Assembly: GCA_019115185.1 (NCBI GenBank)
Contig: DXDZ01000048.1
Location: 1-51,547, forward strand
Source: Candidatus Agathobaculum merdipullorum
Lineage (GTDB): Bacteria; Bacillota; Clostridia; Oscillospirales; Butyricicoccaceae
DNA: 51,547 bases
Direction of reading: 5' to 3'
Each line of letters starts with the position of its first letter. The stretch's first letter is position 1. Both the position numbers and the translations under genes were made by a program. The notes under the pieces are model-generated. The model ran no database searches. It was not told the origin of the DNA and saw only the letters and a program-made list of their open reading frames with translations. Shown here piece after piece: positions 7,060 through 30,315 of the stretch.

Positions 7060-7112
7060 GGAACATTCCTCCCTTTCTGTCTGCGGCGAGCCTCTGCCCG
7101 CCCGCAGACTCT

Positions 7113-7141: not shown

Positions 7142-7223
7142 TACACCACCCGTCGTGATGGGCAGATTTTGTATCCACTTTTGTTCTACCACACATTTTG
7201 TCAAGAAAAATTTTCTCCCCTTC

Positions 7224-7251: not shown

Positions 7252-7256
7252 AAATA

Positions 7257-7274
7257 CGCCAAGTAAACTTGGCG
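7257..7274. promoter_or_regulatory. operator 2, inverted repeat downstream of the -10
   Basis: CGCCAAGT-AA-ACTTGGCG is a perfect inverted repeat with eight-base arms. It shares the core CAAGTNNACTTG with operator 1; the two centres are 32 bases apart, about three helical turns, which would place bound dimers on the same face of the DNA. Confidence 0.75.
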
Positions 7275-7304
7275 CAACGGTAGATAGAGACAAAGAGGTG
7301 CTTT

Positions 7305-7616
7305 ATGAACAAAGAAGAAATTCTGGCGAAAAGCCGCAGTGAAAACACGGATGAAGGCAAAAAGAATGCGGAAGATCAGGGCAGACAAATCGGCATTATC
7401 GCATTCATCATCGTTCTGATTTTTCTCTTCATTTTCAACATGTGTACCAATCGGTCAAACGACGCGCTGGCCGCAGTCTTTTGGACATATGTTGCAGCCG
7501 AAGCTTATCCCCGCTATCGGTTCAGCAAAGAAAAATCTTTGCTATTTACTACCATTGCAGGCGGTTTTCTTGCCATAGCTAACCTCATCACCTATGTGAT
7601 GCGTGTGGTGGGATGA
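7305..7616 (+). CDS. DUF6442-family membrane protein
   Basis: The 103-residue product has a charged N-terminus (MNKEEILAKSRSENTDEGKK) followed by three hydrophobic segments at about residues 31-47, 55-66 and 82-100. This matches the DUF6442 family of small membrane proteins that are regularly encoded next to an XRE-type regulator. Its function is not known. AGAGGTG precedes the ATG, and the stop is immediately followed by the regulator gene, so the pair is one transcript under the double-operator promoter. A membrane sensor or target of the regulator is an inference from pairing alone. Confidence 0.8.
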   Translation: MNKEEILAKSRSENTDEGKKNAEDQGRQIGIIAFIIVLIFLFIFNMCTNRSNDALAAVFWTYVAAEAYPRYRFSKEKSLLFTTIAGGFLAIANLITYVMRVVG

Positions 7617-7619
7617 GTG

Positions 7620-7829
7620 ATGGACAACAAACTGATTCTGCACAACCGCTTGAAAGAAGCGCGCGTTGAAAAAAGTCTATCACAAGCGCAGCTGGCAGAG
7701 CTGGTCGGTGTGTCACGCAACACAATCAGTTCCATCGAAACCGGGCAATTCAACCCGACCGCCAAGCTCGCGCTCATCCTGTGCATCGCGCTGGACAAAA
7801 AATTTGAGGATTTATTCTATTTTGAATGA
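7620..7829 (+). CDS. XRE-family transcriptional regulator (Cro/CI-type)
   Basis: This 69-residue protein is almost entirely a helix-turn-helix domain of the XRE family. The recognition region reads LSQAQLAELVGVSRNTISSI, followed by ETGQFNPTAKLALILCIAL and a short C-terminal acidic tail EDLFYFE that is typical of the small YozG/YvaO-like group. The ATG follows a GTG codon by one position and both are only a few bases after the upstream stop. The nearest candidate DNA targets are the two CAAGTNNACTTG palindromes in front of the operon, so autoregulation is likely. Confidence 0.92.
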   Translation: MDNKLILHNRLKEARVEKSLSQAQLAELVGVSRNTISSIETGQFNPTAKLALILCIALDKKFEDLFYFE

Positions 7830-7835
7830 AACACA

Positions 7836-7867
7836 AAAAAGGATGCCGCAAATGCAGCATCCTTTTT
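7836..7867. terminator. bidirectional terminator
   Basis: AAAAAGGATGC pairs with GCATCCTTTTT around a ten-base loop. The A-tract and T-tract on either side allow use by both the regulator transcript and the convergent lipoprotein transcript. Confidence 0.8.
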
Positions 7868-7879
7868 CTATGTTCTCTA

Positions 7880-8380
7880 TCAGGTGTCCAGTTCGCAGCA
7901 ATACAACGTATTGGTATCGGTGTCATACAGGCCCACCGTAAAATTAAACGATGCCCTGTTCAGGATATCCGCACCGGTCGCTTGATCTTCCTCCACCTGA
8001 CGATCGATCAAACGATAATATCCGTTTGCGATCTCAGACACCAGTGCTTTGCCATCCTCATCCGTCAAAAACGGACCGATGCTGCTGGTTGCATCGGATA
8101 CTCCATAAACCAGCGTCTGAACGGTTTCATCCAGCGGAAACGGCTGCCACGCGGCATCCGCCTTGATTTGTTTTATCATCTCGTCGCCGTCAAAATGCAG
8201 CACCACAAAGGAAGTGCCGTCGCCATTGCCGCTATGCGTGTCCATACTGGACATCGTACTGCCAGTGGAAGCATCCACCCCAAGTGCTTCCGAAACGATC
8301 TCTTGCGGCTCTTGCGAGCCGCAGGCAGCCAATGAAAAGACGAAAACGAGAACAATCCCTATCCAACCTAACTTTTTCAC
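7880..8380 (-). CDS. putative lipoprotein of unknown function
   Basis: The 166-residue product has a classical lipoprotein signal: MKKLGWIGIVLVFVFSLAAC, with the lipobox Cys at residue 20. The mature part is acidic, with a Ser/Thr/Gly-rich linker (about residues 38-55) and an alpha/beta portion containing FVVLHFDGDEMI and the closing FTVGLYDTDTNTLYCCE. I do not recognise the family. The start is a GTG with GGAGG eight bases upstream. It follows gatB by 45 bases on the same strand without an obvious terminator, so it may be read from the gat operon. Confidence 0.8.
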   Translation of the reverse strand: MKKLGWIGIVLVFVFSLAACGSQEPQEIVSEALGVDASTGSTMSSMDTHSGNGDGTSFVVLHFDGDEMIKQIKADAAWQPFPLDETVQTLVYGVSDATSSIGPFLTDEDGKALVSEIANGYYRLIDRQVEEDQATGADILNRASFNFTVGLYDTDTNTLYCCELDT

Positions 8381-8425
8381 AGCAACTACCTCCGCATTGC
8401 ACGTAGGAAAAAGAACGCAGCCAAA

Positions 8426-9850
8426 TTACAGCTTAGCCAGCTCTTGCGCAATCAGCTTGTTGATGATCTGCGGGTTGCCCTGACCCTTGGAAGCCTTCAT
8501 GCACTGGCCCACGAGGAAGCCGGTGACGTTCTTGCCCGCCTTGAAGTCCGCAACCGCCTTTTCGTTCTTGGCGATCACGTCCTGCACGATCGCAAGAATT
8601 GCGCCTTCATCGGACACCTGCTTGAGGCCCATGCGCTCGACAATCGCCTCGACCGTCTCGTCGGTCTCGAACATGCTCGGCAGTACCTTTTTGCCTGCCG
8701 CGCCCGAGATCGTGCCAGCTTCGATCAGCTTGACCAGAGCAACCAGCTTATCCGCGGTCATCTTGGTATCCGGCAGTTCTACGCCCTTGTCGTTGAGGTA
8801 CTTGGAAATATCGGACAGAATCCAGTTTGCCGCCGCCTTGGGCTTGACCTGCTTTGCCGCCGCATCGAGCAGCTCTGCCTTGGCAAAGCTGTCCGAAATC
8901 AGACGCGCTTCCATCGCGGTCATGCCGTACTCATTGAGATAACGCTCATAGCGAGAGATCGGCAGCTCGGGAATCTCGCTCTCGATTTGCTGCATCCACT
9001 CGTCCGAAATCTCAACCGCAATCAGGTCCGGATCGGGGAAATAACGGTAGTCCTGCGCATCCTCCTTGGTGCGCATAACCGTGTTCTTGAGCTTCACGTC
9101 GTCCCAGCGACGGGTCTCCTGCTGAATTTCGCCGCCGTTCTCGACCACTTCGATCTGGCGGGCAATCTCATAGTCAATCGCACGAACCGCACCCGAGAAC
9201 GTGTTGATGTTCTTCATCTCCACGCGCGTACCCAGCTCCTCCGAGCCTTCCGGACGGATAGAAACGTTAACGTCGCAGCGGATCGAGCCTTCCTCCATCT
9301 TACAGTCGCAGATGTCGAGGTAAGACAGCGTGGTTTTGATCATTTCGAGAAATTCCTTCGCTTCCGCCGAGGAATGCAGGTCGGGCTTGGTGACCATCTC
9401 AATCAGCGGCACGCCGCAGCGGTTGAAGTCCACGACCGTGCCGTCGATCTCGTCGTGCAGCAGCTTGCCCGCGTCCTCCTCAAAGTGGATACGCTCCAGA
9501 CGGCAGGACTTCTTCTCACCGTCAACGTAGAAGAACACCTCGCCGTTTTCGCAGATCGGCACATCGAACTGCGAAATCTGGTATGCCTTGGGCAGGTCGG
9601 GATAAAAATAGTTCTTACGGTCGGCCTTGCAGAGCTGGTTGACCGTGCAGCCGGTCGCCTTGCCCATCTTGGCCGCATAGTGTACGACCTGCTTGTTGAG
9701 CACAGGCAGCGCGCCCGGCATACCGGTGCAGACCGGGCAGGTGTGTGTATTGATCGGTGCGCCGAATGAAGTCGAGCACGAGCAGTAGATCTTGCTCTTG
9801 GTGGACAGCTCCGCATGCACCTCAAGGCCGATGACAGCTTGATATTTCAT
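8426..9850 (-). CDS. gatB: Asp/Glu-tRNA(Asn/Gln) amidotransferase subunit B
   Basis: GatB is the tRNA-binding kinase subunit of the GatCAB amidotransferase, which phosphorylates the side chain of Glu-tRNA(Gln) or Asp-tRNA(Asn) and then amidates it. The 474 residues have the expected beginning YQAVIGLEVHAEL, the zinc-binding cysteines (CSCSTSFG and CPVCTGMPG), the KADRKNYFYPDLPK block and a C-terminal YqeY-like helical domain that binds the tRNA. It is the last gene of ligA-gatC-gatA-gatB and starts 15 bases after gatA. Its presence suggests glutaminyl- and/or asparaginyl-tRNA are made by the indirect route. Confidence 0.97.
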   Translation of the reverse strand: MKYQAVIGLEVHAELSTKSKIYCSCSTSFGAPINTHTCPVCTGMPGALPVLNKQVVHYAAKMGKATGCTVNQLCKADRKNYFYPDLPKAYQISQFDVPICENGEVFFYVDGEKKSCRLERIHFEEDAGKLLHDEIDGTVVDFNRCGVPLIEMVTKPDLHSSAEAKEFLEMIKTTLSYLDICDCKMEEGSIRCDVNVSIRPEGSEELGTRVEMKNINTFSGAVRAIDYEIARQIEVVENGGEIQQETRRWDDVKLKNTVMRTKEDAQDYRYFPDPDLIAVEISDEWMQQIESEIPELPISRYERYLNEYGMTAMEARLISDSFAKAELLDAAAKQVKPKAAANWILSDISKYLNDKGVELPDTKMTADKLVALVKLIEAGTISGAAGKKVLPSMFETDETVEAIVERMGLKQVSDEGAILAIVQDVIAKNEKAVADFKAGKNVTGFLVGQCMKASKGQGNPQIINKLIAQELAKL

Positions 9851-9865
9851 TTGTCGTTTCCTCCT

Positions 9866-11335
9866 TTACAGTGCCGCGATGATGTTCTTGAGTCCGGATG
9901 CCTGCTCGAATGCAAGGCCCGCGTCGAGCAGCTTCTGCTCGCCGAAGCGCGGCCCGATCAGCTGCATGCCGATCGGCATCTTGTCTGCGTCAAAGCCGCA
10001 GGGCTGCACCAGACCCGGCAGGCCCGCGATGTTGACCGACACCGTGCAGATATCGCCCGCATACATCTCGAGCGGATTGGTGGTCTTGGAGCCGATCTCA
10101 TACGCCGTGGTGGGCGCAACCGGCGTCAGAATGACGTCGCACTTCTCAAAGGCGTTTGCAAACTCCTCGCGGATCTTACGCTGCGCCGCGCGCGCCTTCT
10201 TGTAGTAAGCGTCGTAGTAGCCAGAGGACAGCACATAGGTGCCCAGCATGATACGGCGCTGTACCTCCGCGCCGAAGCCCTCCGAGCGGCTCTTGGTGTA
10301 AAGCGCAATCAGATCGTCGCCCGCGTTCGGGGTACGATATCCGTACTCGACGCCGTCAAAACGTGCCAGATTGGACGACGCCTCAGCCGACGACAGGATG
10401 TAGTACACCGGCAGCGCGTATTCGACCAGCGGCAGCGAAATCTCGAACACCTCTGCGCCGAGGTTCTTGTAAGTCTCGGCAGCGGCCAGCACGCTCTCGC
10501 GCACCGCGTCCGAAATGCCTGCGCCGAAATATTCCTTGGGCAGACCGATCTTCATGCCCTTGATATCGGCATTCAGATTTGCACGGGTCGAGCCTTCAAA
10601 CGGGGTCTTGACCGAGGTCGAGTCGTGCATCGGGTCGTGACCGGTGATGGCGTCGAGCAGCATCGCCACATCCTCCACCGAGCGGCCAAACGGGCCGATC
10701 TGGTCGAGCGAAGACGCAAATGCGATCAGGCCGTAACGGGACACCGCGCCATAGGTCGGCTTGAGGCCGACTACGCCGCAGAAGGAAGCCGGCTGACGGA
10801 TCGAGCCGCCGGTATCCGAACCGAGCGACAGCGGAACTTCACCCGCCGCAACGACCGCCGCCGAACCGCCGGACGAGCCGCCCGGTACGCGGTTCAAGCC
10901 GTGGGGGTTGTGGGTCGGGTGTGCGGCCGAGTTTTCGCAGGACGAACCCATTGCAAACTCGTCCATATTCGCCTTGCCGGTCATCACTACGTCGTTTGCG
11001 GTCAGCTTTTCAATCACCGTCGCGTTGTACGGCGGCTTGAAGTTGTACAACATCTTGGATGCGCAGGTGGTCAGCGTACCCTTGGTGCAGATGTTGTCCT
11101 TAACGGCAACCGGGATGCCCGCCAGCGCGGACAGTTCTTCGCCCGCGGCGCGCTTCTTGTCCACCTCGGCAGCCTGCGCAAGCGCAGACTCCTCTGCGAC
11201 CGTCACATAGCCCTGCACCTTGTCCTCGACCGCTTTCGTGCGGGCGAAAACATCCTGCGCAAGCTCCACTGCGGAAATCTCCTTATCGGCGAGCATTTTG
11301 GAAAGCTCAGCCGCTGTTTTCTCAAAAAGTGCCAT
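9866..11335 (-). CDS. gatA: Asp/Glu-tRNA(Asn/Gln) amidotransferase subunit A
   Basis: GatA releases ammonia from glutamine for GatB. It is a 489-residue amidase-signature protein with the catalytic triad Lys79 (PVAVKDN), Ser154 (PGGSSGGSAA) and Ser178 (SDTGGSIR). Length and motif spacing are normal. It sits between gatC and gatB in the usual complex-encoding order, starting 17 bases after gatC. Confidence 0.97.
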   Translation of the reverse strand: MALFEKTAAELSKMLADKEISAVELAQDVFARTKAVEDKVQGYVTVAEESALAQAAEVDKKRAAGEELSALAGIPVAVKDNICTKGTLTTCASKMLYNFKPPYNATVIEKLTANDVVMTGKANMDEFAMGSSCENSAAHPTHNPHGLNRVPGGSSGGSAAVVAAGEVPLSLGSDTGGSIRQPASFCGVVGLKPTYGAVSRYGLIAFASSLDQIGPFGRSVEDVAMLLDAITGHDPMHDSTSVKTPFEGSTRANLNADIKGMKIGLPKEYFGAGISDAVRESVLAAAETYKNLGAEVFEISLPLVEYALPVYYILSSAEASSNLARFDGVEYGYRTPNAGDDLIALYTKSRSEGFGAEVQRRIMLGTYVLSSGYYDAYYKKARAAQRKIREEFANAFEKCDVILTPVAPTTAYEIGSKTTNPLEMYAGDICTVSVNIAGLPGLVQPCGFDADKMPIGMQLIGPRFGEQKLLDAGLAFEQASGLKNIIAAL

Positions 11336-11352
11336 TCTTTTCCGTCTCCCCC

Positions 11353-11640
11353 TTATTCTACCACGCGCGGTACGGCTACGCCGCCCGCCTGAAAGTCCGG
11401 TGCGTTCGGCTCGATGAGCTGATCGGGCGTATATTCCTGCACCACCACATCCTCGTGGAACGCATTTTTGCGCTCGGTGTTGATGATATCCGTGATGTCG
11501 CCAAGGTCCAGCTCTGCCAGCTTGTCCACCATGCCGACGATGCCCTGCATGTCGTCCGCGAGACGGTCGAAAATACCGCCCGTCGAGTCCAGACGCGCAA
11601 GGGATGCGATGTGCTCAATTTCTTTTCTGGAAATTGCCAT
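11353..11640 (-). CDS. gatC: Asp/Glu-tRNA(Asn/Gln) amidotransferase subunit C
   Basis: GatC is the small belt-like subunit that stabilises the GatA-GatB complex. The 95 residues show the family pattern: an N-terminal helix with EIEHIASLARL, a central helix MVDKLAELDLGDI, and the extended C-terminal portion with NAFHEDVV and ending in VPRVVE. Its GGAGGAA ribosome site lies inside the end of ligA and its ATG follows the ligA stop by a single base, so it is co-translated with ligA. Confidence 0.95.
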   Translation of the reverse strand: MAISRKEIEHIASLARLDSTGGIFDRLADDMQGIVGMVDKLAELDLGDITDIINTERKNAFHEDVVVQEYTPDQLIEPNAPDFQAGGVAVPRVVE

Positions 11641-11641
11641 G

Positions 11642-13642
<2,001 letters not shown>

Positions 13643-13663
13643 TCACATTCCAATACAGAATAT

Positions 13664-13692
13664 AGTATACCAAATTTTTGGCCCATTCGGAA
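13664..13692 (-). promoter_or_regulatory. possible promoter for ligA-gatCAB
   Basis: On the minus strand TATACT is preceded by a weak TTCCGA with a 17-base spacer, 34 bases before the ligA start. It begins immediately after the yunB stop. The -35 is poor, so confidence is limited. Confidence 0.4.
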
Positions 13693-13695
13693 GTA

Positions 13696-14388
13696 TTATT
13701 TTCCGTTTTCCGACGAATTATCATAATCGCTGACTTCACCGAGCAGACCCGACCCCAGATCGTCGATATAGGTATACCGCTCTGGCACGGTGCCGACGAT
13801 CACCGTGTCGGTGACTGGGTAGCTGGTGACAATCTCGCGGTCCTCGCCGCCCAGCGGCGTTAAAATGCGGAAGCCCGCATGGATTTCGATGATGATGTTA
13901 TGCCGCGTCTGGTTGATGCCCGCCGCGGAAAAGGCGCTGATAAACTCGGCCTCCATCTGGGTCAGGCCCGCCATGCCGATATCGACCGACGGCCCCATAC
14001 CGGTGAAATAGTTTGGGGCAAACACCGTGCCGAGCGGCACCTCAACTGTCGTTTGCTCCAAATCGCTGAGCCGCTCGAACAAGCCGTTGACCAGCCGCGC
14101 CTTGATCTGCCCGATCGCAATGACATCCGTGCGCAGCGCGGTCACATGGTTCTCGCTATCCCGCTCCAAAACGACCATATTCTCATAGGTTTCAGGGTCG
14201 GAAAAGACCTCCTCCTGCATCAGGTTGTTGATCTCCTGAATTGCGCTGTCCTCACACACATTGGTTGCGTATTCCATGAAAATCTGCCGCATCCGCACGG
14301 TCGCCATGATACCGGCGGCTGCCAGCACGGCCAGCAGCACCATCAGCCGCAAGCCCTTCCCTTTTCCGCGATATCTGCGCCGCCGCAT
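13696..14388 (-). CDS. yunB: sporulation protein YunB
   Basis: This 230-residue protein matches YunB, a membrane-associated protein needed for efficient sporulation and made in the mother cell in Bacillus. It has a basic start (MRRRRYRGKGKG), one membrane helix at about residues 14-30, and the family core with AIQEINNLMQEEV, VPLGTVFAPNYFTGMGP and the repeated hydrophobic strands near IIIEIHAGFRILTPLGG. A GGAGGGGG lies before the ATG. Its presence is one of the arguments that the organism forms endospores. Confidence 0.9.
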   Translation of the reverse strand: MRRRRYRGKGKGLRLMVLLAVLAAAGIMATVRMRQIFMEYATNVCEDSAIQEINNLMQEEVFSDPETYENMVVLERDSENHVTALRTDVIAIGQIKARLVNGLFERLSDLEQTTVEVPLGTVFAPNYFTGMGPSVDIGMAGLTQMEAEFISAFSAAGINQTRHNIIIEIHAGFRILTPLGGEDREIVTSYPVTDTVIVGTVPERYTYIDDLGSGLLGEVSDYDNSSENGK

Positions 14389-14432
14389 GTTTCCGCCCCC
14401 TCCGGGACAATATACGCGGCGAAAACCAAAAA

Positions 14433-14459
14433 AAGAAGCACCCGTTTGGGGTGCTTCTT
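14433..14459 (-). terminator. strong terminator after ispH-rpsA
   Basis: AAGAAGCACCC and GGGTGCTTCTT pair perfectly over 11 bases around a five-base loop. Read on the minus strand it is followed by TTTTTTT, the classic Rho-independent form, 13 bases past the ispH-rpsA stop. Confidence 0.93.
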
Positions 14460-14472
14460 TGCATCTTCGGAA

Positions 14473-16407
14473 TTACTCCTCGTCGCCGTACTCGTCGCCA
14501 ACCAGCAGCGCACGAATGGACAGGGAGACCTTCTTCTTCTCATCGTTGATATCGATGATCTTCGCGTTCACCATCTGGCCAACCTCGAGTTCATCCTCGG
14601 GCTTAGCGATGCGGTGATCCGCAATCTGCGAAATATGGATCAGGACGTCCACGCCCGGAACGATCTCAGCGAACGCGCCGAACGGCATGAACTTGAGGAT
14701 CTTGACCTCAGCCACGTCGCCCACGCCGTACTTGGACTTGAATACGTTCCACGGATTGTCCTCCTCGCGCTTGTAGCCGAGGGAGATCTTCTTGTTTTCC
14801 TTATCCAGACCGATCACGAACACCTTAACCTTGTCGCCAACATTGACAACCTCGGACGGGTGCTTGATGCGGCCCCAGGACAGCTCGGAAATGTGAACCA
14901 TGCCGTCCACACCGCCGATATCAACAAACGCGCCGTAGGAGGTCAGGCTCTTTACCGTGCCCTCGTACTCGTTGCCAACCTCGATGGTGCTCCAGATCTT
15001 CTCTGCAGCAGCCTTGCGGGCTTCCTGCTGAATCTGACGGATAGAGCCAACCACGCGCTTGCGCTGACGGTTGATCTCGGTGATATAGAAAGACTGCTTG
15101 GTCTTCACCAGCTGGTTCATCGGCTGATCCTTCGGTACGCCGGTCTGGCTGGCCGGGATAAAGACGCGCACGCCAAATGCGGTTGCAACCACGCCGCCGC
15201 GGTTCTCTTCCACGATGGTGCCTTCCACAACCGTGTGCTCCTCATACGCCTTCTCGATGGTCTCCCAGCCCTTGAGCTGGTCAACACGCTTCTTAGACAG
15301 GGTAACCGTGCCCTCGCCGTCGTTGACGCGGACAACAACTGCTTCGATCTCATCGCCCGGATGGATGTTGGCAGCTACGTCGTAGTTCGGATCATCCGAC
15401 AGCTCGCTGACCGGGATATACGCAGTGTGCTTGACGCCCAAATCGACCTGTACGTCGGTCGTGGACACTGCGACAACGGTACCGGTGACTTTCTCTCCTG
15501 TATTTAAAGTCTTGAAGGACTCTTCGAGCATTGCGGCAAAGTCCTCGCCATTTTCGATTTTCGTTTCTTCGCTCATCATGTTACTGACCTCCTTAATTAT
15601 CCATGCCGGTGTCGATGCCCCTGCTGTGATCCCGACGCGCCCATCCCGGCAGAGCTCCTGCGTCGTAAGCTCCGCGGCGTCCTCGATATAAAGCACATTT
15701 TTGCACAGCGACCGACTGATTTCATACAGCCGTTTTGTGTTGGAACTTTTCTTGTCGCCGATCACAATCATTTGATCCGACGCACCGGCAAGCAGACGAG
15801 CCTCCGACTGACGCTCATCCGTCGCTTTACATATTGTATCAAAAATTTTGAGGTTTGTACACCTTTTTTTTATCAGACCGACGGAAATATTCCAAATTGC
15901 CCGATTGACAGTGGTTTGTGCGACCACGGCAAGAGGCCTGTCAACCATCTCCGGCTGCTCGGTGAACGCCCGTGCCTGCTCTTCGCCCTCCAGCACAACC
16001 GACTCGCCGCACCAGCCTTGGATACCCACGACCTCGGGATGGCCCGCGCTGCCCAGAATGACGATCAAACGGCCGTCCCGGCTTTCCTGATCGACGATGC
16101 GGTGGATTTTCTGGACAAACGGACAGGTCGCGTCAAAAACCTCGCAGTTTTTTGCCGAAAGCGTGTCATAAACGGCGCGCGGTACGCCGTGCGCGCGGAT
16201 CAAAACCTTTGCCCCGTCCGGGATTTCCGCCAGCGTCTGCGCGGTGCGCACGCCGTGCTCCTCCAGACGCCGAATCTCGTGCATGTTGTGAATGATCTCA
16301 CCCAAGGCGAAGATCGTACCGTTTTTTTCCGCCTGCTGTTCGGCCAGTTCGACCGCGCGGCGCACGCCGAAGCAAAATCCGGCGGTTTTTGCAACTGTAA
16401 CACTCAT
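14473..16407 (-). CDS. ispH: IspH - ribosomal protein S1 fusion
   Basis: The 644-residue product joins two complete proteins. Residues 1-278 are 4-hydroxy-3-methylbut-2-enyl diphosphate reductase, the last enzyme of the MEP isoprenoid pathway, with the three Fe-S cysteines at 12 (GFCFGV), 95 (DATCPF) and 193 (TICKAT) and the substrate histidines in EIIHN, RAHGVP and AGHPE. From about residue 300 there are four S1 RNA-binding domains; the third (GTVKSLTSYGAFVDIGGVDG) and fourth are the most canonical. A short acidic linker separates them. This bifunctional arrangement is known from Clostridia. It overlaps plsC by four bases and ends the rpiR operon. Confidence 0.95.
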   Translation of the reverse strand: MSVTVAKTAGFCFGVRRAVELAEQQAEKNGTIFALGEIIHNMHEIRRLEEHGVRTAQTLAEIPDGAKVLIRAHGVPRAVYDTLSAKNCEVFDATCPFVQKIHRIVDQESRDGRLIVILGSAGHPEVVGIQGWCGESVVLEGEEQARAFTEQPEMVDRPLAVVAQTTVNRAIWNISVGLIKKRCTNLKIFDTICKATDERQSEARLLAGASDQMIVIGDKKSSNTKRLYEISRSLCKNVLYIEDAAELTTQELCRDGRVGITAGASTPAWIIKEVSNMMSEETKIENGEDFAAMLEESFKTLNTGEKVTGTVVAVSTTDVQVDLGVKHTAYIPVSELSDDPNYDVAANIHPGDEIEAVVVRVNDGEGTVTLSKKRVDQLKGWETIEKAYEEHTVVEGTIVEENRGGVVATAFGVRVFIPASQTGVPKDQPMNQLVKTKQSFYITEINRQRKRVVGSIRQIQQEARKAAAEKIWSTIEVGNEYEGTVKSLTSYGAFVDIGGVDGMVHISELSWGRIKHPSEVVNVGDKVKVFVIGLDKENKKISLGYKREEDNPWNVFKSKYGVGDVAEVKILKFMPFGAFAEIVPGVDVLIHISQIADHRIAKPEDELEVGQMVNAKIIDINDEKKKVSLSIRALLVGDEYGDEE

Positions 16408-16991
16408 ACTTTTTCCTTCAGCGCATAAATGCGGTGCAGAATATCATCCGCAATCACGCCGTAATCCTTTTCTTTTGCATCCGGGCGGAACGGCTCACCA
16501 ATGACCACGGTTGCCTTGCAGCGAAAGCCCTTGTTTTCCGTGATGTACATGGGCAGAATCGGCGCGCGGGTCTTGACCGCCAGCATCGCCGCGCCCTTTT
16601 TGGTTTCGCCCTCGCTCGCACCGCGCGTGCCCTGCGGAAAGATAATCAGCTTGCGGCCTTCGCGCACCGCGCCCAGCGCGGTCTTGATCGCGGTGATATC
16701 CGCACCCTCGCGGTCGATCGGGAACGCGCCCAGCGCCGCAATCAGCCATGCAAACAGCTCATTGCCCTCAAACAGCTCCTTTTTCGCCATCAAACGCAGC
16801 GGCGTTGTATGCCCAAGCGCCACTGCTGCAAACGGCGGGTCGGATAACTGCACATGGTTGGGACAAACCACACAGCCGCCCTCCGGGATATTCTCCCGGC
16901 CGATCACCTTGTATCCAAAATAAATGTGAAAAGCCAGCGCCACAAACGGCACTGCCAACCATTGGAACCAGCGATGGAATTTGAGTTTCAT
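16404..16991 (-). CDS. plsC: 1-acyl-sn-glycerol-3-phosphate acyltransferase
   Basis: PlsC adds the second acyl chain to lysophosphatidic acid at the inner face of the membrane, making phosphatidic acid. The 195-residue protein has an N-terminal membrane helix (WLAVPFVALAFHIYFGY), the catalytic NHxxxxD motif as NHVQLSD, and the glycerol-phosphate binding motif as PQGTRG. ATGA-type overlaps at both ends couple it to cmk upstream and ispH-rpsA downstream, the usual clostridial order. Confidence 0.93.
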   Translation of the reverse strand: MKLKFHRWFQWLAVPFVALAFHIYFGYKVIGRENIPEGGCVVCPNHVQLSDPPFAAVALGHTTPLRLMAKKELFEGNELFAWLIAALGAFPIDREGADITAIKTALGAVREGRKLIIFPQGTRGASEGETKKGAAMLAVKTRAPILPMYITENKGFRCKATVVIGEPFRPDAKEKDYGVIADDILHRIYALKEKV

Positions 16992-17668
16992 CGGTTTTCC
17001 TCCGTTTTTTCCCGAATGATGCGCAGCACGGCATCGATGCTCTGCTCGAGCGTGATACTGCTCGTATCCAGCAGCACTGCGTCCTCCGCCTGCTTGAGCG
17101 GCGCGACCGCGCGCGTCATGTCCTGATGGTCACGCTGCCGGATGTCGCGCAGCACCGCGTCCAGCGTCACCTGCTGCCCCTTTTCTTGCAGTTCCAGAAA
17201 ACGCCGCTGCGCGCGCGCCTCGGCCGACGCCGTCAGGAAAATCTTGACCGGCGCATCCGGCAGAATAACCGTGCCGATATCGCGCCCGTCCATGAGGATA
17301 TTGCCGTTTTTCGCCATATTGCGCTGCGTATCGAGCAAAAACTGCCGCACTTCGGGCACCGCCGACACCTTGGAGGCATATTTTGCAATCTCTGGCGTAC
17401 GGATAGCGTCCGACACATCCTCGCCGCACAGCAGGATATGCTGCGCGCCGTCCTGATACTGAAGCGAAAGCGTAATTTCGGGCAAAACCGAAACAATCCC
17501 CGCCGTATCGTCCCCTGAAATGCCTTTCCGGCACACGGCAAGGCCGATCGCGCGGTACATCGCGCCCGTGTCCACATATACATAGCCCAGCTGCGCCGCC
17601 GCCGCGCGCGCAACCGTCGATTTGCCCGCACCCGACGGGCCGTCAATGGCGACCGAAATGTAACCCAT
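16988..17668 (-). CDS. cmk: (d)CMP kinase
   Basis: Cytidylate kinase phosphorylates CMP and dCMP for nucleotide and lipid synthesis. The protein has the P-loop GPSGAGKST near the N-terminus, the conserved DTGAMYRA, the MDGRDIGTVILPDA block and the lid region with QRDHQDMTRAVAPL. I placed the start at the ATG preceded by AAGGAGG, giving 226 residues; an 18-codon extension upstream would read into the end of the FAD enzyme gene and lacks family similarity. Confidence 0.95.
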   Translation of the reverse strand: MGYISVAIDGPSGAGKSTVARAAAAQLGYVYVDTGAMYRAIGLAVCRKGISGDDTAGIVSVLPEITLSLQYQDGAQHILLCGEDVSDAIRTPEIAKYASKVSAVPEVRQFLLDTQRNMAKNGNILMDGRDIGTVILPDAPVKIFLTASAEARAQRRFLELQEKGQQVTLDAVLRDIRQRDHQDMTRAVAPLKQAEDAVLLDTSSITLEQSIDAVLRIIREKTEENR

Positions 17669-17670
17669 GT

Positions 17671-18900
17671 TTATTCCTCCTTCTGCGCGGCGGAAAGCCC
17701 GGCTAACCGGCCGGTTGACCACGCGATTTGTAAATTAAAACCGCCCGTATAGGCGTCTATATCCAGCACCTCTCCTGCAAAATACAGTCCGGCACATTTT
17801 TTCGACTCCATGGTTTTGGGGCTGACCTCGCGCACGCTGACGCCGCCCGTGGTCACAATCGCCTCCGCGATCGGGCGCTTGCCCGACACTGCCACGGAAA
17901 AATGCTTGAGCGTATGCAAAAGCGAGGCGCGCTGCGCCTTGGTGATGCTGTTTACCTTGGCATGCGGGTCGATCTCGGACAGCCGCACCACCACGGGAAT
18001 GATCTTGCGCGGGAGCAGATCGCCCAACGCATTGATAAAATCGCTGTTTTTGTGCTTGTCAAAGTCCGAAAGCAGCCGCTTGTCCAGCGTTTTTTCGTCC
18101 AGCGCGGGCTTGAGGTCAATTTCAACCCGATACTCCTTGCTGCCGAAATGCCGCATATGCGCGGACGCAGACAAAATCAGCGGGCCGGACAAGCCGAAAT
18201 GCGTGAACAGCATTTCCCCGAATTCGGAAAAAATCTTCTTGTTGTTTTCAAACACAGCCACCTGCACATTGCGCAGGCTCAGTCCCATCAGCTCACGGCA
18301 GATCTCCCCCGCCTCAACCAGCGGCACCAGTGACGGATTGGGCGGCACGACCGTGTGCCCCGCCTGCTTGGCAAAGCGGTATCCGTCTCCGGTTGAACCG
18401 GTTTGCGGATAAGAGGCTCCTCCCGTCGCAATAATGACCCGATCGCCCTCATAAAGTTTGCCGTGCGCGTGCACGCCGGCGATAAAACCATCCCGTATTT
18501 CCAGTTGCTCTACTGTTTTCTGTATAATTGTAACACCCAGACGTTTGACCCAGGTAAAAAGTGCGTCAATAATATCCGCAGACTTGTCCGAAACCGGAAA
18601 AACGCGGTTGCCGCGCTCGGTTTTGAGTGACACGCCATGCGCTTCAAAGAACGCCATCACATCCGCAGGCGAAAAGCAATCCAGCGCAGAATACAAAAAG
18701 CGCGGATTGACCGGCACATTCTGCAAAACGGTCTGTGCATCGCAGTTGTTGCACACATTGCACCGGCCTTTGCCGGTGATGAACAGCTTGCGGCCGACTT
18801 TTTCATTCGTCTCAAACAGCGTCACGCGCGCACCGTTTTCCGCTGCGGTACCCGCAGCCATCAGCCCTGCCGCGCCGCCGCCGACTACCAGAATATTCAA
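17671..18900 (-). CDS. NAD(P)/FAD-dependent oxidoreductase, HI0933/BaiN-like family
   Basis: The 409-residue flavoprotein begins with a dinucleotide-binding fold (VVGGGAAGLMAAGTAAE) and shows the family-specific GKGRCNVCN motif at about residue 43 and a late CAGLYFAGEVLDIDAYTGGF with the second FAD-contacting motif. This family is widespread and poorly defined biochemically; some members are proposed to reduce C=C bonds of bile-acid intermediates, but that cannot be inferred here. The start is a TTG overlapping the stop of rpiR (TTGA), giving tight coupling. It sits upstream of cmk in an order common to Clostridia. Confidence 0.9.
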   Translation of the reverse strand: MNILVVGGGAAGLMAAGTAAENGARVTLFETNEKVGRKLFITGKGRCNVCNNCDAQTVLQNVPVNPRFLYSALDCFSPADVMAFFEAHGVSLKTERGNRVFPVSDKSADIIDALFTWVKRLGVTIIQKTVEQLEIRDGFIAGVHAHGKLYEGDRVIIATGGASYPQTGSTGDGYRFAKQAGHTVVPPNPSLVPLVEAGEICRELMGLSLRNVQVAVFENNKKIFSEFGEMLFTHFGLSGPLILSASAHMRHFGSKEYRVEIDLKPALDEKTLDKRLLSDFDKHKNSDFINALGDLLPRKIIPVVVRLSEIDPHAKVNSITKAQRASLLHTLKHFSVAVSGKRPIAEAIVTTGGVSVREVSPKTMESKKCAGLYFAGEVLDIDAYTGGFNLQIAWSTGRLAGLSAAQKEE

Positions 18901-19766
18901 TTTATCTCGTCCTCCGGCTTTTCGTATACGTCGTATTCCTCCCAGATGCGCTCGAGCTTGTTGAAGGTTTGCTCGATCTCATCGCGCCGGCTCATGCCGA
19001 CGGCAACAATCAGCGCATTGACGACCGAAAGCGGCGCCACCAGCGAATCGACAAAGCTCGCCATATCGCTGCGCGCCAGCAGAAGATGGTCCGCCACGCG
19101 CGCGAGCGGCGACAAATGCGAGTCGGTCAGCGCGATCACGCGCGCACCACGGTCGCGCGCATACTGCATCGCGCTGAGCGTACGCTTGGAGTAGCGCGGA
19201 AAGCTGACGCCGAGCACCACATCGCCCGGCCCGACGCGCAGCACCTGCTCAAAAATCTCGCTGACGCTGTTGGTATGTACAAGCGTCACGTTTTCAAACA
19301 AAAGGTTAAAATAAAAGCCGACAAAATTGGACAGCGCGCTCGAAGAACGCACGCCGAGTATATAAATCCGCTTCGCCCCGATCAGCGCATCCACCGCGCC
19401 CTGAAATGCGTCGCGGTCGATCTCGTCCAGCGTCTGCCGGATCATGTCCATATCCGCGTGCAGCACGGTCTGCAATACGTCGCGCCCGCCCATGCGGTCG
19501 CTCGACACCTCCATGCGCTGCACCGAGGTCAGCTTGTTGCGAATCATCTCCTGCAACGCACGCTGCAAGTGCGGATAACCGTCATAGCCCAATTCAGTCG
19601 CAAACCGCACCACAGTCGATTCGCTCACGCCGACGGTCGTGCCCAGACGGCTGGCCGTCATAAAGGCCGCTTTGTCGTAATGTTCGAGAATAAAGCGCGC
19701 AATCTGCTTCTGTCCCTTGGAAAAGCCGGACAGCTCGCTCTGGATTTTATTGATCAGGTCGTTCAT
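18897..19766 (-). CDS. MurR/RpiR-family transcriptional regulator
   Basis: The 289-residue protein has an N-terminal RpiR-type helix-turn-helix (about residues 1-77, with TASRLGTTVGVSESTVVRFA) and a sugar-phosphate-binding SIS domain (about 125-255, with KRIYILGVRSSSALSNFVG and GDVVLGVSFPRYSKRT). Members sense phosphosugars, often amino sugars. It is the first gene of the operon that continues into the FAD enzyme, cmk, plsC and ispH-rpsA. Two similar GCAAAA/TTTTGC inverted repeats flank its promoter and are good candidates for autoregulatory sites. The inducer is not predictable. Confidence 0.92.
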   Translation of the reverse strand: MNDLINKIQSELSGFSKGQKQIARFILEHYDKAAFMTASRLGTTVGVSESTVVRFATELGYDGYPHLQRALQEMIRNKLTSVQRMEVSSDRMGGRDVLQTVLHADMDMIRQTLDEIDRDAFQGAVDALIGAKRIYILGVRSSSALSNFVGFYFNLLFENVTLVHTNSVSEIFEQVLRVGPGDVVLGVSFPRYSKRTLSAMQYARDRGARVIALTDSHLSPLARVADHLLLARSDMASFVDSLVAPLSVVNALIVAVGMSRRDEIEQTFNKLERIWEEYDVYEKPEDEIN

Positions 19767-23494: not shown

Positions 23495-24205
23495 TTACTC
23501 TCCTTTGTCATCTATCAGCGTCAGTTCCATATCCTCGCCATCGCCTTCCAGCCGGATGCGCCGGTTTTTGGACAGCTCCAAAACCGCCAAAAAGGTAGCC
23601 ACGATTTCCGAACGGCTCCTTGCATCGTCAAACAGACGGCGAAACGGCAGCCGGACATAGTGCAAAAACCGCTTGAGAATGGACGTAATCCGCCCCTCGA
23701 CCGGCACAGGCTCCCGCCCGATGATACCGGAAAACGCGCTGGCCGGCGGCGGTACACGCCGCTGCGCCCGGCGCAGCATATTGTTGGCCGCCCGGATCAG
23801 GTCGCTGACCGATTGGCGGTATTCCTTGGGCGCATCGCCCAGATTTTCCGGCGGCTTGACGAAAATATCGCGGCCCAGCTCGCCTTTTTCCCGGAAGAAG
23901 GATGCCGTTTCTTTGATGCGCTGGTATTCCAGCAGCATTTCCACCAGACTGGTGCGCGGGTCCTCCTATTCTTCCTCCTCGTGGCGCGGCAGCAGCATCT
24001 TGGATTTGATATACACCAGCTGCGCCGCCATGGCGACAAAATCGCCCGCCACATCCAGATCCATCGCCTCGGCTGCATGCAGCACTTCCATGTATTGGTC
24101 GAGAATCTCCGCGATCGGGATGTCATAAATACTGACCTTGTTTTTTGCGATCAGGTGCAGCAGCAAATCCAGCGGGCCGTCAAAGTTCTCCAAATGAAAT
24201 TCCAT
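23495..24205 (-). pseudogene. scpA: segregation and condensation protein A with one in-frame TAG
   Basis: The two halves of a complete ScpA kleisin lie in the same reading frame, interrupted by a single TAG at 23966-23968 (codon 80 of 236). The N-terminal part (FHLENFDGPLDLLLHLI, IPIAEILDQYM, AAQLVYIKSKMLLPRHEEEE) would bind Smc; the C-terminal part (EMLLEYQRIKETASFF to the winged helix EIVATFLAVLELSKNRRI) binds Smc and ScpB. The TAG falls in the acidic linker, where a Glu codon is expected, so GAG to TAG is the simplest change. There is no frameshift and no other damage. The start is the ATG after AAGGG. Options are a real recent mutation, a sequencing error, or readthrough; an AGGAGG immediately after the TAG could also favour restart downstream. 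Confidence 0.85.
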
Positions 24206-24217
24206 GCCGCGCAACCC

Positions 24218-24874
24218 TTACAAGAACAGGCTGACCAGCCGCAGCGCCAGATGCAGAATGCGCATGGAAACCGCGCTCATGATCCCGTCCAGCCAGCCGC
24301 GCCACAGCGCCAGAATGAACACCAGCAGAATGATATTCTGATACTTTTGCAGCTTGAGCGACCACGAAAACGGCAAAAACGCATCCAAAACGCGCGAGCC
24401 GTCCAGCGGATGCACCGGAATCAGGTTGAACACACCCAAGCCGACCGACATGCTCGCCACAATCGACAGGAACATGCCCACCGTCTGCATGAATGCACTC
24501 GTGCCATACATCCACACCGGCACATACAGACAATAGGCAATAAATGCGGTGATAAAGTTTGCGGCAGGCCCAGCAAGCGCAGTCAGCGCCATGCCCCAGC
24601 GCCGGTTTTTGAAATTGGAAATATTGACCGGAACAGGCCGCGCCCAGCCGAACCCAAACAGCAGCAGGCACAAAAATCCGAACGGATCAATATGCGCCAT
24701 CGGGGACAGCGTCATCCGGCCCGAATCATGCGCTGTGCGGTCGCCCAACAGGTACGCCATACCGCCGTGCGCCGCCTCGTGTACGGACAAGCATAATACG
24801 ATCGCAGGAAGCGACAACGCCAACGTAATGAACGCGGACTGTAAATCGCCGCTCAGCAAAGCTCTCCAAAGCAA
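24218..24874 (-). CDS. site-2 protease family protein (M50)
   Basis: The 218-residue protein is a multi-spanning intramembrane zinc metalloprotease of the S2P type. The zinc ligands are visible in HEAAH (HExxH) within the second helix and in NLIPVHPLDG, the family's NPxPxxxLDG motif. Four to five hydrophobic segments are present. The start is a TTG nine bases after a perfect AGGAGG. It is the first gene of the run into scpA, scpB, DUF2953 and ytfJ and has its own promoter. A housekeeping or sporulation-linked proteolysis role is likely but the substrate is unknown. Confidence 0.9.
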   Translation of the reverse strand: MLWRALLSGDLQSAFITLALSLPAIVLCLSVHEAAHGGMAYLLGDRTAHDSGRMTLSPMAHIDPFGFLCLLLFGFGWARPVPVNISNFKNRRWGMALTALAGPAANFITAFIAYCLYVPVWMYGTSAFMQTVGMFLSIVASMSVGLGVFNLIPVHPLDGSRVLDAFLPFSWSLKLQKYQNIILLVFILALWRGWLDGIMSAVSMRILHLALRLVSLFL

Positions 24875-27586: not shown

Positions 27587-28654
27587 TTATGGGCAGACTG
27601 CGTATAAATTGGTGTCCCACGCGGGCACATACGGATGGTGCCGCAGGTACAGCCGGTAGTCCGGGCAGAGCGTGTGGACAAGCAGCGGCAGCTGGAAAAA
27701 GTCCTCGTTTTTGTGATAGGCAGCTATATTGAGTTTGGGCCGGTGCTGACGTATGGTCTGCGCCGCGCCCGCGATCGCCTCGCGCTCCGCGCCCTCCACA
27801 TCCATTTTCAGATAGGTGCAGGATGCGCCGTCCAGCACGCTGTCCAGCGCGCGCATTTGGGTTTCCTTGCCCTGCTTTGCCACGCGCGACTGCCGTCCCG
27901 CCTGATCGGAAAAGCAAAGCACCGTATCACTCGACCACGCGCCCGCCTGCTCGCACCGAACGCTGCCGGACAACCCTTCGGCATAAACTGTTAGCTTGCG
28001 AAAGCTGCGCCGGTCGGGCTCGAGCGCCGTGATGGACGCAAACGCACCGTCGGTATAGTGCAGCAATTCCCGGATGGTGTCGCCCGTATACGCGCCCAGA
28101 TCGGCAAAAATTTCCTCATGCGTGGGCCGCAGGATGGTATGAAACGCCTCGTCCTTGTCGGTCTCGCTGGCGCGCAGATAACGCAGCCGGCCGGACAGCT
28201 TAAACCGCACGGTATCGAGAAACACCTGCCGCGACTGCTCATCCTCGAGCAAATCAAACGCCTGCTGCATCTCTTCCTGATGCGCCTGCACAAATTCCTC
28301 GTCGAACACCGCTCCCGGCACGACCGGCACATCGGGCGCGACCACATCAAACCGCGCATCGAGCGCGTACATCTTTTCCAGCACCTCGGGCCGCTGGCTG
28401 GCAAACGCAATCGCAATCACAATATCCTCGCCGAACTGCTCCACCACCTCGGACAGTTTTTGCACCCGAAAGCCGTGAAAGCTATGCCCGCGCACAAACT
28501 CATCGCTGGCAAACACGCCCGATGCACGAATGCCGCATGCGTCAAACTGCGATAAAATTTTATCCGCGCCGTCGCCCATGCCATACAAAACGATCGGGCG
28601 TTTTTCCTCACGCAAAGCCTGCCAAACCGACCGTTCCAGCGACAAAAAATCCAT
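27587..28654 (-). CDS. FkbM-type methyltransferase with N-terminal Rossmann-like domain
   Basis: The 355-residue product has two parts. Residues 1-150 resemble a small Rossmann domain (PIVLYGMGDGADKILSQF, FASDEFVRG, IVIAIAFASQ) like those that precede sugar-modifying enzymes. Residues about 185-350 match the FkbM family of SAM-dependent methyltransferases, with motif I as FADLGAYTGDTIREL and YLKMDVEGAEREAIAGA. FkbM proteins commonly methylate sugar hydroxyls in glycans or natural products. I chose the ATG after GGGGAG; a 25-codon extension covers the promoter. It is divergent from the repeat-protein gene, with the two promoters only 34 bases apart, so a shared pathway is possible. Confidence 0.85.
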   Translation of the reverse strand: MDFLSLERSVWQALREEKRPIVLYGMGDGADKILSQFDACGIRASGVFASDEFVRGHSFHGFRVQKLSEVVEQFGEDIVIAIAFASQRPEVLEKMYALDARFDVVAPDVPVVPGAVFDEEFVQAHQEEMQQAFDLLEDEQSRQVFLDTVRFKLSGRLRYLRASETDKDEAFHTILRPTHEEIFADLGAYTGDTIRELLHYTDGAFASITALEPDRRSFRKLTVYAEGLSGSVRCEQAGAWSSDTVLCFSDQAGRQSRVAKQGKETQMRALDSVLDGASCTYLKMDVEGAEREAIAGAAQTIRQHRPKLNIAAYHKNEDFFQLPLLVHTLCPDYRLYLRHHPYVPAWDTNLYAVCP

Positions 28655-28681: not shown

Positions 28682-28710
28682 ATTATAATCGGTGCATACG
28701 CCTCTGTAAA
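28682..28710 (-). promoter_or_regulatory. promoter of the FkbM-type gene
   Basis: On the minus strand TTTACA and TATAAT are separated by 17 bases, about 27 bases upstream of the start codon. This is close to consensus. Confidence 0.75.
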
Positions 28711-28744: not shown

Positions 28745-28773
28745 TTGCGGTTTATCCCGCAGTACAGTATAAT
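28745..28773 (+). promoter_or_regulatory. promoter of the repeat-protein gene
   Basis: TTGCGG and a perfect TATAAT are separated by 17 bases and lie back to back with the FkbM promoter. The start codon follows 34 bases after the -10. Confidence 0.7.
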
Positions 28774-28807: not shown

Positions 28808-29413
28808 ATGTCAAAATCCAACGGTATTCTGGCGATGGATCCAAGCAAATACCGGGAGATCGACGGCGTGGTTTTTGATTTGGACAGCTACGCCAAGCAC
28901 TGCGCACCCCCGGAACAAGACCCGCCCGCGCCGGAAGAACCGACACCTGCCGCGCCCATTCCCGCGCCGGAAGGCATTCTGGCGATGGACCCGGAGCATT
29001 ATCGCGCGCTTGACGGCGTCGCCATGGATGAGGACAGCTTCGAGCGCCACAGCCAACCGCCTGCGAATGAAAAGCCCGCAGAGCAAACGGTCGTTACCGA
29101 GGAAGCCGCACCCACCGGCGTGTTTGCGGTCGATCCGTTTCCGAACGGCTGGTATCCAGCCGAGGACGGCAGACCTCCCGTTCCCATCATGGGCGGTGCG
29201 CTCCCTCCGGTCGAAATTCTGGAAAACGGCACGCATGTGGTGACGGTCATCCGCACCGTCTTTCTGCACACCGGCTCTGGTTTGGGTTCGGGCTCGTATG
29301 TGACTTCGTACACTACCTCGTACCGCACCAGCTATCTTTCCTCGGGTTCCGGCTCGTATGTGTTCGGCTCGTGCACCTATCTGGTCGGCGGCTACGGATT
29401 GGAGCTGATTTGA
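28808..29413 (+). CDS. modular repeat protein with Ser/Tyr/Gly-rich tail, unknown function
   Basis: The 201-residue protein is unlike any family I know. It contains two clear copies of a 26-residue module, at residues 6-31 and 56-81, with the pattern GILAMDPxxYRxxDGVxxDxDSxxxH, and a third partial copy (GVFAVDP) at 104-110. Pro/Glu-rich linkers separate them (PPAPEEPTPAAPIPAPE). The C-terminal 50 residues are dominated by Ser, Tyr, Thr and Gly (SGSYVTSYTTSYRTSY) and end in VGGYGLELI; one Cys is at 189. There is no signal peptide or membrane helix. AAGGGGG lies seven bases before the ATG. The downstream glycosyltransferase-like gene starts on the last base of its stop codon. The modular front and hydroxyl-rich tail suggest a substrate for modification, but this is inference. 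Confidence 0.8.
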   Translation: MSKSNGILAMDPSKYREIDGVVFDLDSYAKHCAPPEQDPPAPEEPTPAAPIPAPEGILAMDPEHYRALDGVAMDEDSFERHSQPPANEKPAEQTVVTEEAAPTGVFAVDPFPNGWYPAEDGRPPVPIMGGALPPVEILENGTHVVTVIRTVFLHTGSGLGSGSYVTSYTTSYRTSYLSSGSGSYVFGSCTYLVGGYGLELI

Positions 29414-30276
29414 TGCTGCGTGCGTTTCACTCCACCTGGACGCGCCCGTTTTTCGCGCGGTCGCCCGACCGCCCTTACACGGTCGAACCGTTCGAGCTGT
29501 TGACCACCGCGCTGTCCGCGCTTGCGTGGCGGCGGGAAAACGGCCCCATCCGCATGATTTGTGATACCAAGGCCCAGCGGTATTATGACGCGCTCGGCCT
29601 TTCTTTTTTATGGGACGAAGGCGTGCATCCGCTGCTTGACGCCGTACCCGAGGATGTAAACCCCATGGCGTTCTGGGCGGCGGGCAAGCTGTATGCACTC
29701 TCCGCGATGCCGTCCCCCTGCGTGATGATCGACACGGACTTCATCTGCTGGAAGCCGCTCGCGCCGCTGCTGAAAGGATTGGACGCCGCCGCCATCCACC
29801 GGGAGGACATCATGCCGGACATCTATCCGGACGCGCGCACGTTCACCCAGACACATGGCTTTGACTTTTCGGCATTTGACTGGACAGTGCAGCCGTTCAA
29901 CACCGCGCTGTGCTATCTGGCGGACGATGCGTTCCGTCGATATTACACCGATACCGCCATTCGCTTCATCCGCTGTTCGCCCCATGCCGACGATGTGCTG
30001 ACCTACATGGTCTTTGCCGAGCAGCGCCTGCTCGCCATGTGCGCTGCGCGCAAGCATATCCGCGCCGCCGCGCTGTCCGATCTGGAAGCGCTGTTCACCG
30101 GCGCGCAGCAGGGGTTTTTCACACATATCTGGGGCTTCAAACAGCAGATGCGGGATGAACCCGCGCTTTACGAGGATTTTTGCCGCCGCTGCGCCGCGCG
30201 ACTGCGGCGCGACTTTCCGGACGAGGCCGCACGCATCGCCGCTGTGCCTACGCTTGCCCCCTATTTTACCGACTGA
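29413..30276 (+). CDS. DUF6734 family protein, glycosyltransferase-like
   Basis: The 287-residue protein starts MLRAFHSTWTRPF, the typical beginning of DUF6734, and carries a central CVMIDTDFICW with a DTD motif such as GT-A glycosyltransferases use to bind a nucleotide-sugar and metal. There is no membrane segment, so it is probably cytoplasmic. Its start overlaps the preceding stop (TGATG), meaning the repeat protein and this enzyme are made together. I infer it acts on the repeat protein or on a shared glycan; the activity is not established for the family as far as I know. A bidirectional terminator follows after four bases. Confidence 0.75.
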   Translation: MLRAFHSTWTRPFFARSPDRPYTVEPFELLTTALSALAWRRENGPIRMICDTKAQRYYDALGLSFLWDEGVHPLLDAVPEDVNPMAFWAAGKLYALSAMPSPCVMIDTDFICWKPLAPLLKGLDAAAIHREDIMPDIYPDARTFTQTHGFDFSAFDWTVQPFNTALCYLADDAFRRYYTDTAIRFIRCSPHADDVLTYMVFAEQRLLAMCAARKHIRAAALSDLEALFTGAQQGFFTHIWGFKQQMRDEPALYEDFCRRCAARLRRDFPDEAARIAAVPTLAPYFTD

Positions 30277-30280: not shown

Positions 30281-30315
30281 AAAACGGCCCGCACCACAGT
30301 GGTGCAGGCCGTTTT
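30281..30315. terminator. bidirectional terminator
   Basis: AAAACGGCC and GCACC pair with GGTGC and GGCCGTTTT, with a C-A mismatch in the middle and the loop ACAGT. T-tracts extend on both sides, serving the DUF6734 and fructokinase transcripts. Confidence 0.9.

Follow-up and report, generated by a model that had tools for sequence, protein, structure and literature searches.

The 51,547-nucleotide contig DXDZ01000048.1 of Candidatus Agathobaculum merdipullorum (assembly GCA_019115185.1; family Butyricicoccaceae), referred to here as the window, harbors two overlapping genes encoding P0001, a repeat protein that ends in GYGLELI, and P0002, an enzyme resembling the DUF6734 family. In the family of the host, the enzyme and the tail-bearing protein are a dedicated pair and not part of a general tagging scheme, because tail and enzyme occur in the same genomes with one adjoining copy each. 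On balance, we favor the view that the pair is a dedicated unit in which a tail-recognizing glycosyltransferase acts on the protein encoded upstream of it. A preliminary description of this DNA had noted a 201-residue open reading frame (ORF) whose stop codon overlaps the start of a DUF6734 gene, and the ORF reading of the window bears this out. P0001 occupies 28808–29410 and is followed by its stop codon, the TGA of which shares its A with the ATG of P0002 at 29413 (TGATG); P0002 comprises 287 residues (29413–30276). Since the genes overlap, translation of the two is probably coupled. The features of the pair are as follows.

28808–29413, plus strand: P0001, GYG-tailed repeat protein of 201 residues, presumed dedicated acceptor or partner (ORF reading; homologues)
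28823–28906, plus strand: P0001 module 1, residues 6–33, GILAMDPSKYREIDGVVFDLDSYAKHCA (read directly; dN/dS, the ratio of nonsynonymous to synonymous substitution rates, 0.095 over residues 1–33)
28973–29056, plus strand: P0001 module 2, residues 56–83, GILAMDPEHYRALDGVAMDEDSFERHSQ (read directly; dN/dS 0.036)
29267–29410, plus strand: P0001 Ser/Gly/Tyr/Thr-rich tail, residues 154–201, with SYxTSYxTSY repeats, presumed acceptor region (dN/dS 0.026; dipeptide counts)
29390–29410, plus strand: P0001 C-terminal motif GYGLELI, presumed docking motif (pattern GYG[LIVM]x[LI][IV] ends the upstream partner in 77/80 loci)
29413–30276, plus strand: P0002, DUF6734-like predicted GT-A glycosyltransferase of 287 residues (PF20508 below cut-off; AlphaFold2 model; fold matches)
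29731–29739, plus strand: P0002 DTD, residues 107–109, presumed DxD metal/donor motif (invariant in a 72-sequence alignment)
30124–30141, plus strand: P0002 H238-x-W-G-x-K243, resembling the GT8 HxxGxxKPW (H238, W240, G241, and K243 invariant in the same alignment)

The pairing was followed across lineages by scanning GTDB species genomes with an alignment of the enzyme, and the best 80 of 200 relatives, from named records, were taken as loci. A partner with the motif GYG[LIVM]x[LIVM][IVLM] was present directly upstream of the enzyme in 78 of the 80 loci, and the motif formed its last seven residues in 77; the form GYG[LIVM]x[LI][IV] was likewise the exact C-terminus in 77. The consistent association on which the preliminary description had made its idea of a system depend was thus found. 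Among these best 80 of 200, the closest named relatives of P0002 came from Agathobaculum. The set also included Butyricicoccus, Intestinibacillus, metagenome-assembled genomes of Oscillospiraceae, Ruminococcaceae, and a member of the Spirochaetaceae, Clostridium (C. celatum, C. saudiense, C. cuniculi, C. cibarium, and others), Cellulosilyticum, and a Lachnospiraceae strain.

Closer to the host, P0001 homologues were detected in 35 of 99 relatives: 24 of 25 genomes of the genus (own included), 10 genomes elsewhere in the family, and a single weak match at the order level. Homologues of P0001 and P0002 adjoined in 33 of the 34 loci fetched, the exception (L062) being the weak order-level match (E 0.006), where neither homologue was present. 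In 87 genomes of the family, a DNA pattern for the tail was found in 49 and the enzyme profile in 50; these were the same genomes save G044, whose tail (locus L028) reads GGFGLELI, with Phe for Tyr. Every enzyme-bearing family genome had one enzyme copy, adjoining the tail match. The tail pattern matched once in the own genome, and a reversed control pattern matched once. A general C-terminal tag carried by many proteins was rejected for the host's family, since the 49 genomes gave 50 tail matches in total and each enzyme had one next to it; the sole extra match (G112) lay on another contig, read GYGLYFV, and did not adjoin the enzyme. All near-complete genomes of the six enzyme-bearing family genera (36/36) had the pair, and the 16 near-complete family genomes without the enzyme were all from other genera. 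In a tree built from SpoIVA of 31 genomes (quick method, midpoint root; 32 regions fetched of the 69 genomes with a match, with G102, which gave no ORF, dropped), the distribution of the enzyme needed a single change, with all enzyme-bearing genera together on the same side of a branch. The enzyme was present in 4 of 398 genomes sampled evenly across the phylum, own included.

The partners are held together by their C-termini. Two GILAMDP..DGV modules are visible in P0001, with a degenerate third (GVFAVDP..GWY). The preliminary description had asked whether such modules are regular in the upstream neighbors of DUF6734 genes; they are indeed present in P0001, but partners outside the host's clade are without them, and the feature common across lineages is the C-terminal tail, usually together with a Ser/Tyr/Thr/Gly-rich stretch before it. 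Module 2 is missing even from several members of the genus as well as from other genera. The N-termini are lineage-specific, with GILAMDP..DGVVFDLDSY modules in Agathobaculum, a start of the type MAFDxIVFSQxEL..LCDNxFxLP in another set, and others elsewhere. Lengths range from 23 residues in Cellulosilyticum (MRFSKEIEEIPTSNAGGYGLELI in L125, with L128 alike) through ∼60 in Clostridium to about 300. No Pfam family was obtained for P0001 at E up to 10, and NCBIfam gave chance-level rows only; ten partners from other lineages were also without a Pfam or NCBIfam family, except for zinc-ribbon/TPR matches in L127 and chance-level rows. No hydrophobic N-terminal stretch or signal peptide was seen in P0001 by eye, in agreement with the earlier reading.

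Over 77 partners, the tail consensus consisted of an invariant G-Y-G followed by L/I/V/M, E/N/H/D, L/I, and I/V. Among nine Agathobaculum sequences picked by length (200–203 residues; pooled pairs), the tail was the most constrained of six P0001 regions (dN/dS 0.026, against 0.036–0.095 for the modules and middle and 0.20–0.30 for the linkers). The 73 residues preceding the motif, evaluated in the 64 of 77 partners with a stop-to-stop frame of at least 130 residues (close relatives counted separately), contained 29.7% Ser/Thr, 17.1% aromatics, and 13.1% Gly. Ser-aromatic dipeptides numbered 488 in these tails vs. 172 after shuffling and TS-aromatic 167 vs. 13.5, with the reverse order, aromatic-Ser/Thr, at 131 vs. 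234. As a side observation, the partner in L200 (G464, 3462–5175) ends in ..SGSGFGGYGLELIDAR, three residues (DAR) beyond the motif, and lies upstream of an enzyme gene split by an insertion that we take to be an IS30-like transposase.

The DUF6734 identity proposed earlier for P0002 holds in part: PF20508 matched at E 1.3e-5 over profile positions 22–284 of 286, but the score of 25.2 bits (20.8 bits in the genome search) lies under the Pfam gathering cut-off of 27, hence the term DUF6734-like. The GT-A expectation, which had been drawn from the DTD motif, agrees with the AlphaFold2 model of P0002, in which the mean predicted local distance difference test score (pLDDT) was 96.0 and the predicted template-modeling score (pTM) 0.92. 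The best fold matches of the model were glycogenin and other GT8-type enzymes, with glycogenin at the top of the VIA-align list and UGGT and LgtC tying with it; the model thereby places P0002, as predicted, within the GT8-type GT-A fold. In 72 aligned enzymes, DTD was invariant and so was HxWGxK, its Lys one place nearer than in the HxxGxxK of GT8. P0002 is predicted to be a metal- and nucleotide-sugar-dependent GT8-fold glycosyltransferase.

Locus L144, in which partner and enzyme share one frame, provided a natural tether for modeling when read through the single stop. The enzyme was ordered in this model, and the preceding 59 residues had pLDDT <50 except for residues 34–45 and 57–59, the latter beside the enzyme. 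Residues 34–45 correspond to NGYGINLI and the next four residues, the pLDDT of the motif lying between 50 and 90. The model put Tyr36 of the motif in a beta bridge, with INLI forming a helical turn. Single bridge residues were also present at 199 and 242, so the modeled contact of the motif is probably with the body of the enzyme. The tail was carried by four of the 42 rows of the underlying alignment.

Taken as a mechanism, the enzyme would recognize its single partner through the C-terminal GYGLxLI tail, a docking predicted with moderate confidence, and would transfer sugar to Ser/Thr, possibly Tyr, just before the tail. The acceptors would range from a few sites in the 23-residue Cellulosilyticum peptide to dozens in proteins with SYxTSY/GSF repeats, and the gene overlap would couple production of enzyme and partner. 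A fixed tail accompanied by acceptor-like residues that vary from few to dozens is as expected for a docking motif and a free acceptor region. In Agathobaculum and relatives, the FkbM-type methyltransferase P0003, encoded divergently, might also O-methylate the product, a step that we put forward tentatively.

Several observations weigh against this interpretation. Two of the 80 loci (L138 and L141) have no GYG partner, the motif is internal to a zinc-ribbon protein in L127, and the short partner in L111 has few Ser/Thr near its tail. The one-copy test covers the host's family alone. For the enzyme, the Foldseek TM-scores were modest (0.3–0.5), Pfam gave no GT8 (PF01501) row at E up to 10, the profile comparison with one GT8 sequence returned a probability of 0.15%, and no PDB sequence matched. 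Docking comes from the single tethered model, which is a hint and not proof, and we infer the glycosylation itself, that is, sugar transfer by P0002 onto its partner, along with its donor, acceptor, and activity.

The likeness to glycogenin (GT8; 1zcv, 8cvz), which self-glucosylates on its own Tyr, suggests another reading. Both have a GT-A/GT8-type fold over most of the domain and a DxD-like motif, both are soluble, and the acceptor here would also be a protein hydroxyl; the differences are an identity of ∼11%, an acceptor that would be a separate protein, and a tie of the pair to glycogen that is hypothetical. In a two-part bacterial analogue, the enzyme would add the first glucoses to the partner, which would prime an intracellular alpha-glucan made by glycogen synthase. 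The rank of glycogenin in the VIA-align list speaks for it, as do partners that look cytosolic and hydroxyl-rich, of which even the 23-residue one would suffice as a primer, and glgA was found in 49 of the 50 enzyme-bearing family genomes vs. 7 of the 37 without. On the SpoIVA tree, however, the enzyme genera form one clade; the agreement with glgA thus reflects one evolutionary event and adds no independent evidence. Moreover, glgA occurs without the enzyme in G034 and G046 (both g11 genomes) and in G042 (g6), the glgA of the own genome is on another contig (C37), and GT8-type folds are widespread, with UGGT and LgtC tying with glycogenin. We consider this analogue unlikely. The boldest reading, just as unlikely, takes it as a split bacterial glycogenin: the GT8-fold enzyme would start an intracellular polysaccharide on a primer encoded separately, GYG-tailed, Ser/Tyr-rich, and as short as 23 residues, and in one clade FkbM would add methyl caps. 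A review states that glycogenin is neither needed nor known in prokaryotes, neither it nor its homologues having ever been detected there (PMC8116748).

A surface or spore-coat glycoprotein, whose low-complexity tail, once glycosylated, would self-assemble extracellularly or on the spore, would suit the Ser/Tyr/Gly-rich tails and a family that sporulates (spoIVA in 69/87 genomes). It is nevertheless quite improbable: no signal peptide was seen by eye, no recurrent export gene was recognized beside the pair among the clusters listed, and the tiny partners are without a low-complexity tail. The position-conserved sigma-A-type promoter and the tiny partners also weaken the spore assembly that the preliminary description had considered. 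A sporulation link found no useful support, spoIVA being common without the pair too (25/37, vs. 44/50 with it) and undetected in the own genome, itself 90% complete. We hold it very unlikely that the pair makes a ribosomal peptide natural product with the C-terminal GGYGLxLI octapeptide as core and the enzyme as tailoring enzyme; short precursors (23 to ∼60 residues) with an invariant C-terminus beside one enzyme would fit, but the majority of partners are long and conserved in their N-terminal portions, the motif lies inside the protein in L127 and has DAR after it in G464, and no recurrent precursor protease, transporter, or radical enzyme was recognized among the clusters listed. The constant pairing and gene overlap would also suit a non-catalytic complex, with the glycosyltransferase-fold protein as chaperone or scaffold for a self-assembling partner; the invariance of catalytic-type residues, needless in a pure scaffold, leaves little room for this. 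Carriage by mobile elements or phages was rejected: a tblastn search with P0002 at E 1e-3 gave no match in 72,556 plasmid and 50,697 phage records, and in the host's family the pair is flanked by chromosomal housekeeping genes.

The surroundings of the putative glycosyltransferase pair comprise the following further features.

27587–28654, minus strand: P0003, FkbM-type methyltransferase of 355 residues, clade-specific accessory (TIGR01444, PF05050)
28682–28710, minus strand: promoter-like site of the FkbM gene, TTTACA-17-TATAAT (11/12 consensus matches)
28745–28773, plus strand: promoter-like site of the pair, TTGCGG-17-TATAAT (comparable site at similar distance in 28/30 clade loci)
30283–30313, no strand assigned: inverted repeat and T-run after the enzyme gene, terminator-like (read directly; the scan does not list it)

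P0003 exceeded both curated cut-offs (TIGR01444, 50.4 vs. 37.7; PF05050, 47.6 vs. 22.7), confirming the FkbM identity given earlier. The gene lies divergently beside the pair in 31 of the 33 loci found by P0001 similarity; the other two have contig breaks, with FkbM near the edge of another contig. As for the co-occurrence of FkbM that the preliminary description had proposed to look for, the gene was present in 34 of the 80 cross-lineage loci (not adjoining in L102). In the family, it was found in 49 of 50 enzyme genomes vs. 4 of 37 others, a co-occurrence that amounts to one evolutionary event because a single branch separates the enzyme-bearing genera from the others. FkbM was accordingly rejected as a core part and is a clade-specific accessory. 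In genus g10, the pair sits elsewhere in the genome than FkbM. In 38 genomes searched, FkbM was found in nine (E 1e-20 or better), eight identical in position with family genomes and the ninth weaker (E 1.1e-50). Two genomes of genus g3, G116 and G117 (L196 and L195), have an FkbM of the P0003 subfamily (E about 1e-104) without a DUF6734-like enzyme. The N-terminus of P0003, strongly conserved in the clade, is NeuD/PglD-like (TIGR03570, 24 bits, far under cut-off). Across the 87 genomes of the family, the clades marked by glgA, by FkbM, and by the enzyme nearly coincide, a clear instance of phylogenetic confounding.

The preliminary description placed the repeat gene under a near-consensus promoter; the near-consensus site is that of FkbM, and the site of the repeat gene has a weak −35 element (TTGCGG, 3/6) and is absent from the promoter scan listing. 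Among 30 loci drawn by the analyst from the host's FkbM-bearing clade, 28 had TTGxxx-17-TATAAT as their best promoter-like site, at much the same distance from the start. A shuffle p of 0.05 was reached by 19 of 75 upstream regions, for which start codons were picked by a simple rule, some wrongly (L070, L113), and many of the other 45 loci, chiefly of other N-terminal types, had weak sites. The position-conserved sigma-A-type promoter suggests vegetative expression, with production of the pair probably taking place during growth, and counts against a spore protein of the mother cell.

The flank in the family is of a chromosomal housekeeping kind (ScpB, DUF2953, and a HIT-like protein just under cut-off, with what is presumably a site-2-protease-like gene at 24218–24874 of the window), and flanks differ between lineages. 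No recurrent exporter, precursor protease, or radical enzyme was recognized beside the pair among the clusters listed, most of which were unannotated. At 23495–23944, the ScpA match spans profile positions 80–226 only, and the 5′ end looks short or frameshifted, possibly from assembly; the ORF overlapping it (23797–24126) showed no ScpA start by eye. In 16 loci among L118–L145, and in that set only, a membrane protein gene that we take to be YihY/BrkB-like lies just upstream of the GYG partner, ∼1.5–2.4 kb ahead of where the enzyme gene ends. In the 398-genome phylum sample, one distant relative of DUF6734 (E 3.5e-10; L199, G407, 6014–19760) is flanked by what appear to be a fibre-like and a DUF4157-like protein, in a cluster that looks to us like contractile-injection genes; DUF6734-type enzymes may also modify fibres.

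Known systems resemble the pair in part. Serine-rich repeat adhesins of Gram-positives are wall proteins secreted through accessory Sec export, with several dedicated glycosyltransferases nearby; they share with the proposed unit dedicated glycosylation beside a low-complexity Ser-rich protein, whereas here there is one enzyme, with no export genes recognized and no signal peptide seen. In glycocins (SunS/SunA), a glycosyltransferase also adjoins a short peptide, but the acceptors are Cys/Ser, and the leader, transporter, and oxidoreductase of their clusters were not recognized beside the pair. EarP, the fold of which differs from that of P0002, and EF-P, whose gene we take to adjoin that of EarP, likewise represent one enzyme with one dedicated protein substrate. 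That system differs in its arginine acceptor, a well-folded substrate, and the lack of a tail motif; rhamnosylation of the EF-P arginine by EarP is described in PMC5363779. Open-licence PubMed Central literature yielded no description of DUF6734, the GYGLELI tail, or a "bacterial glycogenin." Dedicated glycosyltransferase–substrate pairs are a known kind, and a categorically new function of the GYG-tail pair is possible.

Neither member has a described function that we could find, yet the pair is kept in all 36 near-complete genomes of six family genera. That it recurs in Clostridia such as Clostridium and Cellulosilyticum, among others, suggests a protein-sugar-tagging system not described before. 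The seven-residue tail would offer a compact, testable recognition code for a protein-modifying enzyme, with possible use in engineered glycosylation, and the pair gives a tangible way to ask whether the intracellular polymers of bacteria are primed on protein.
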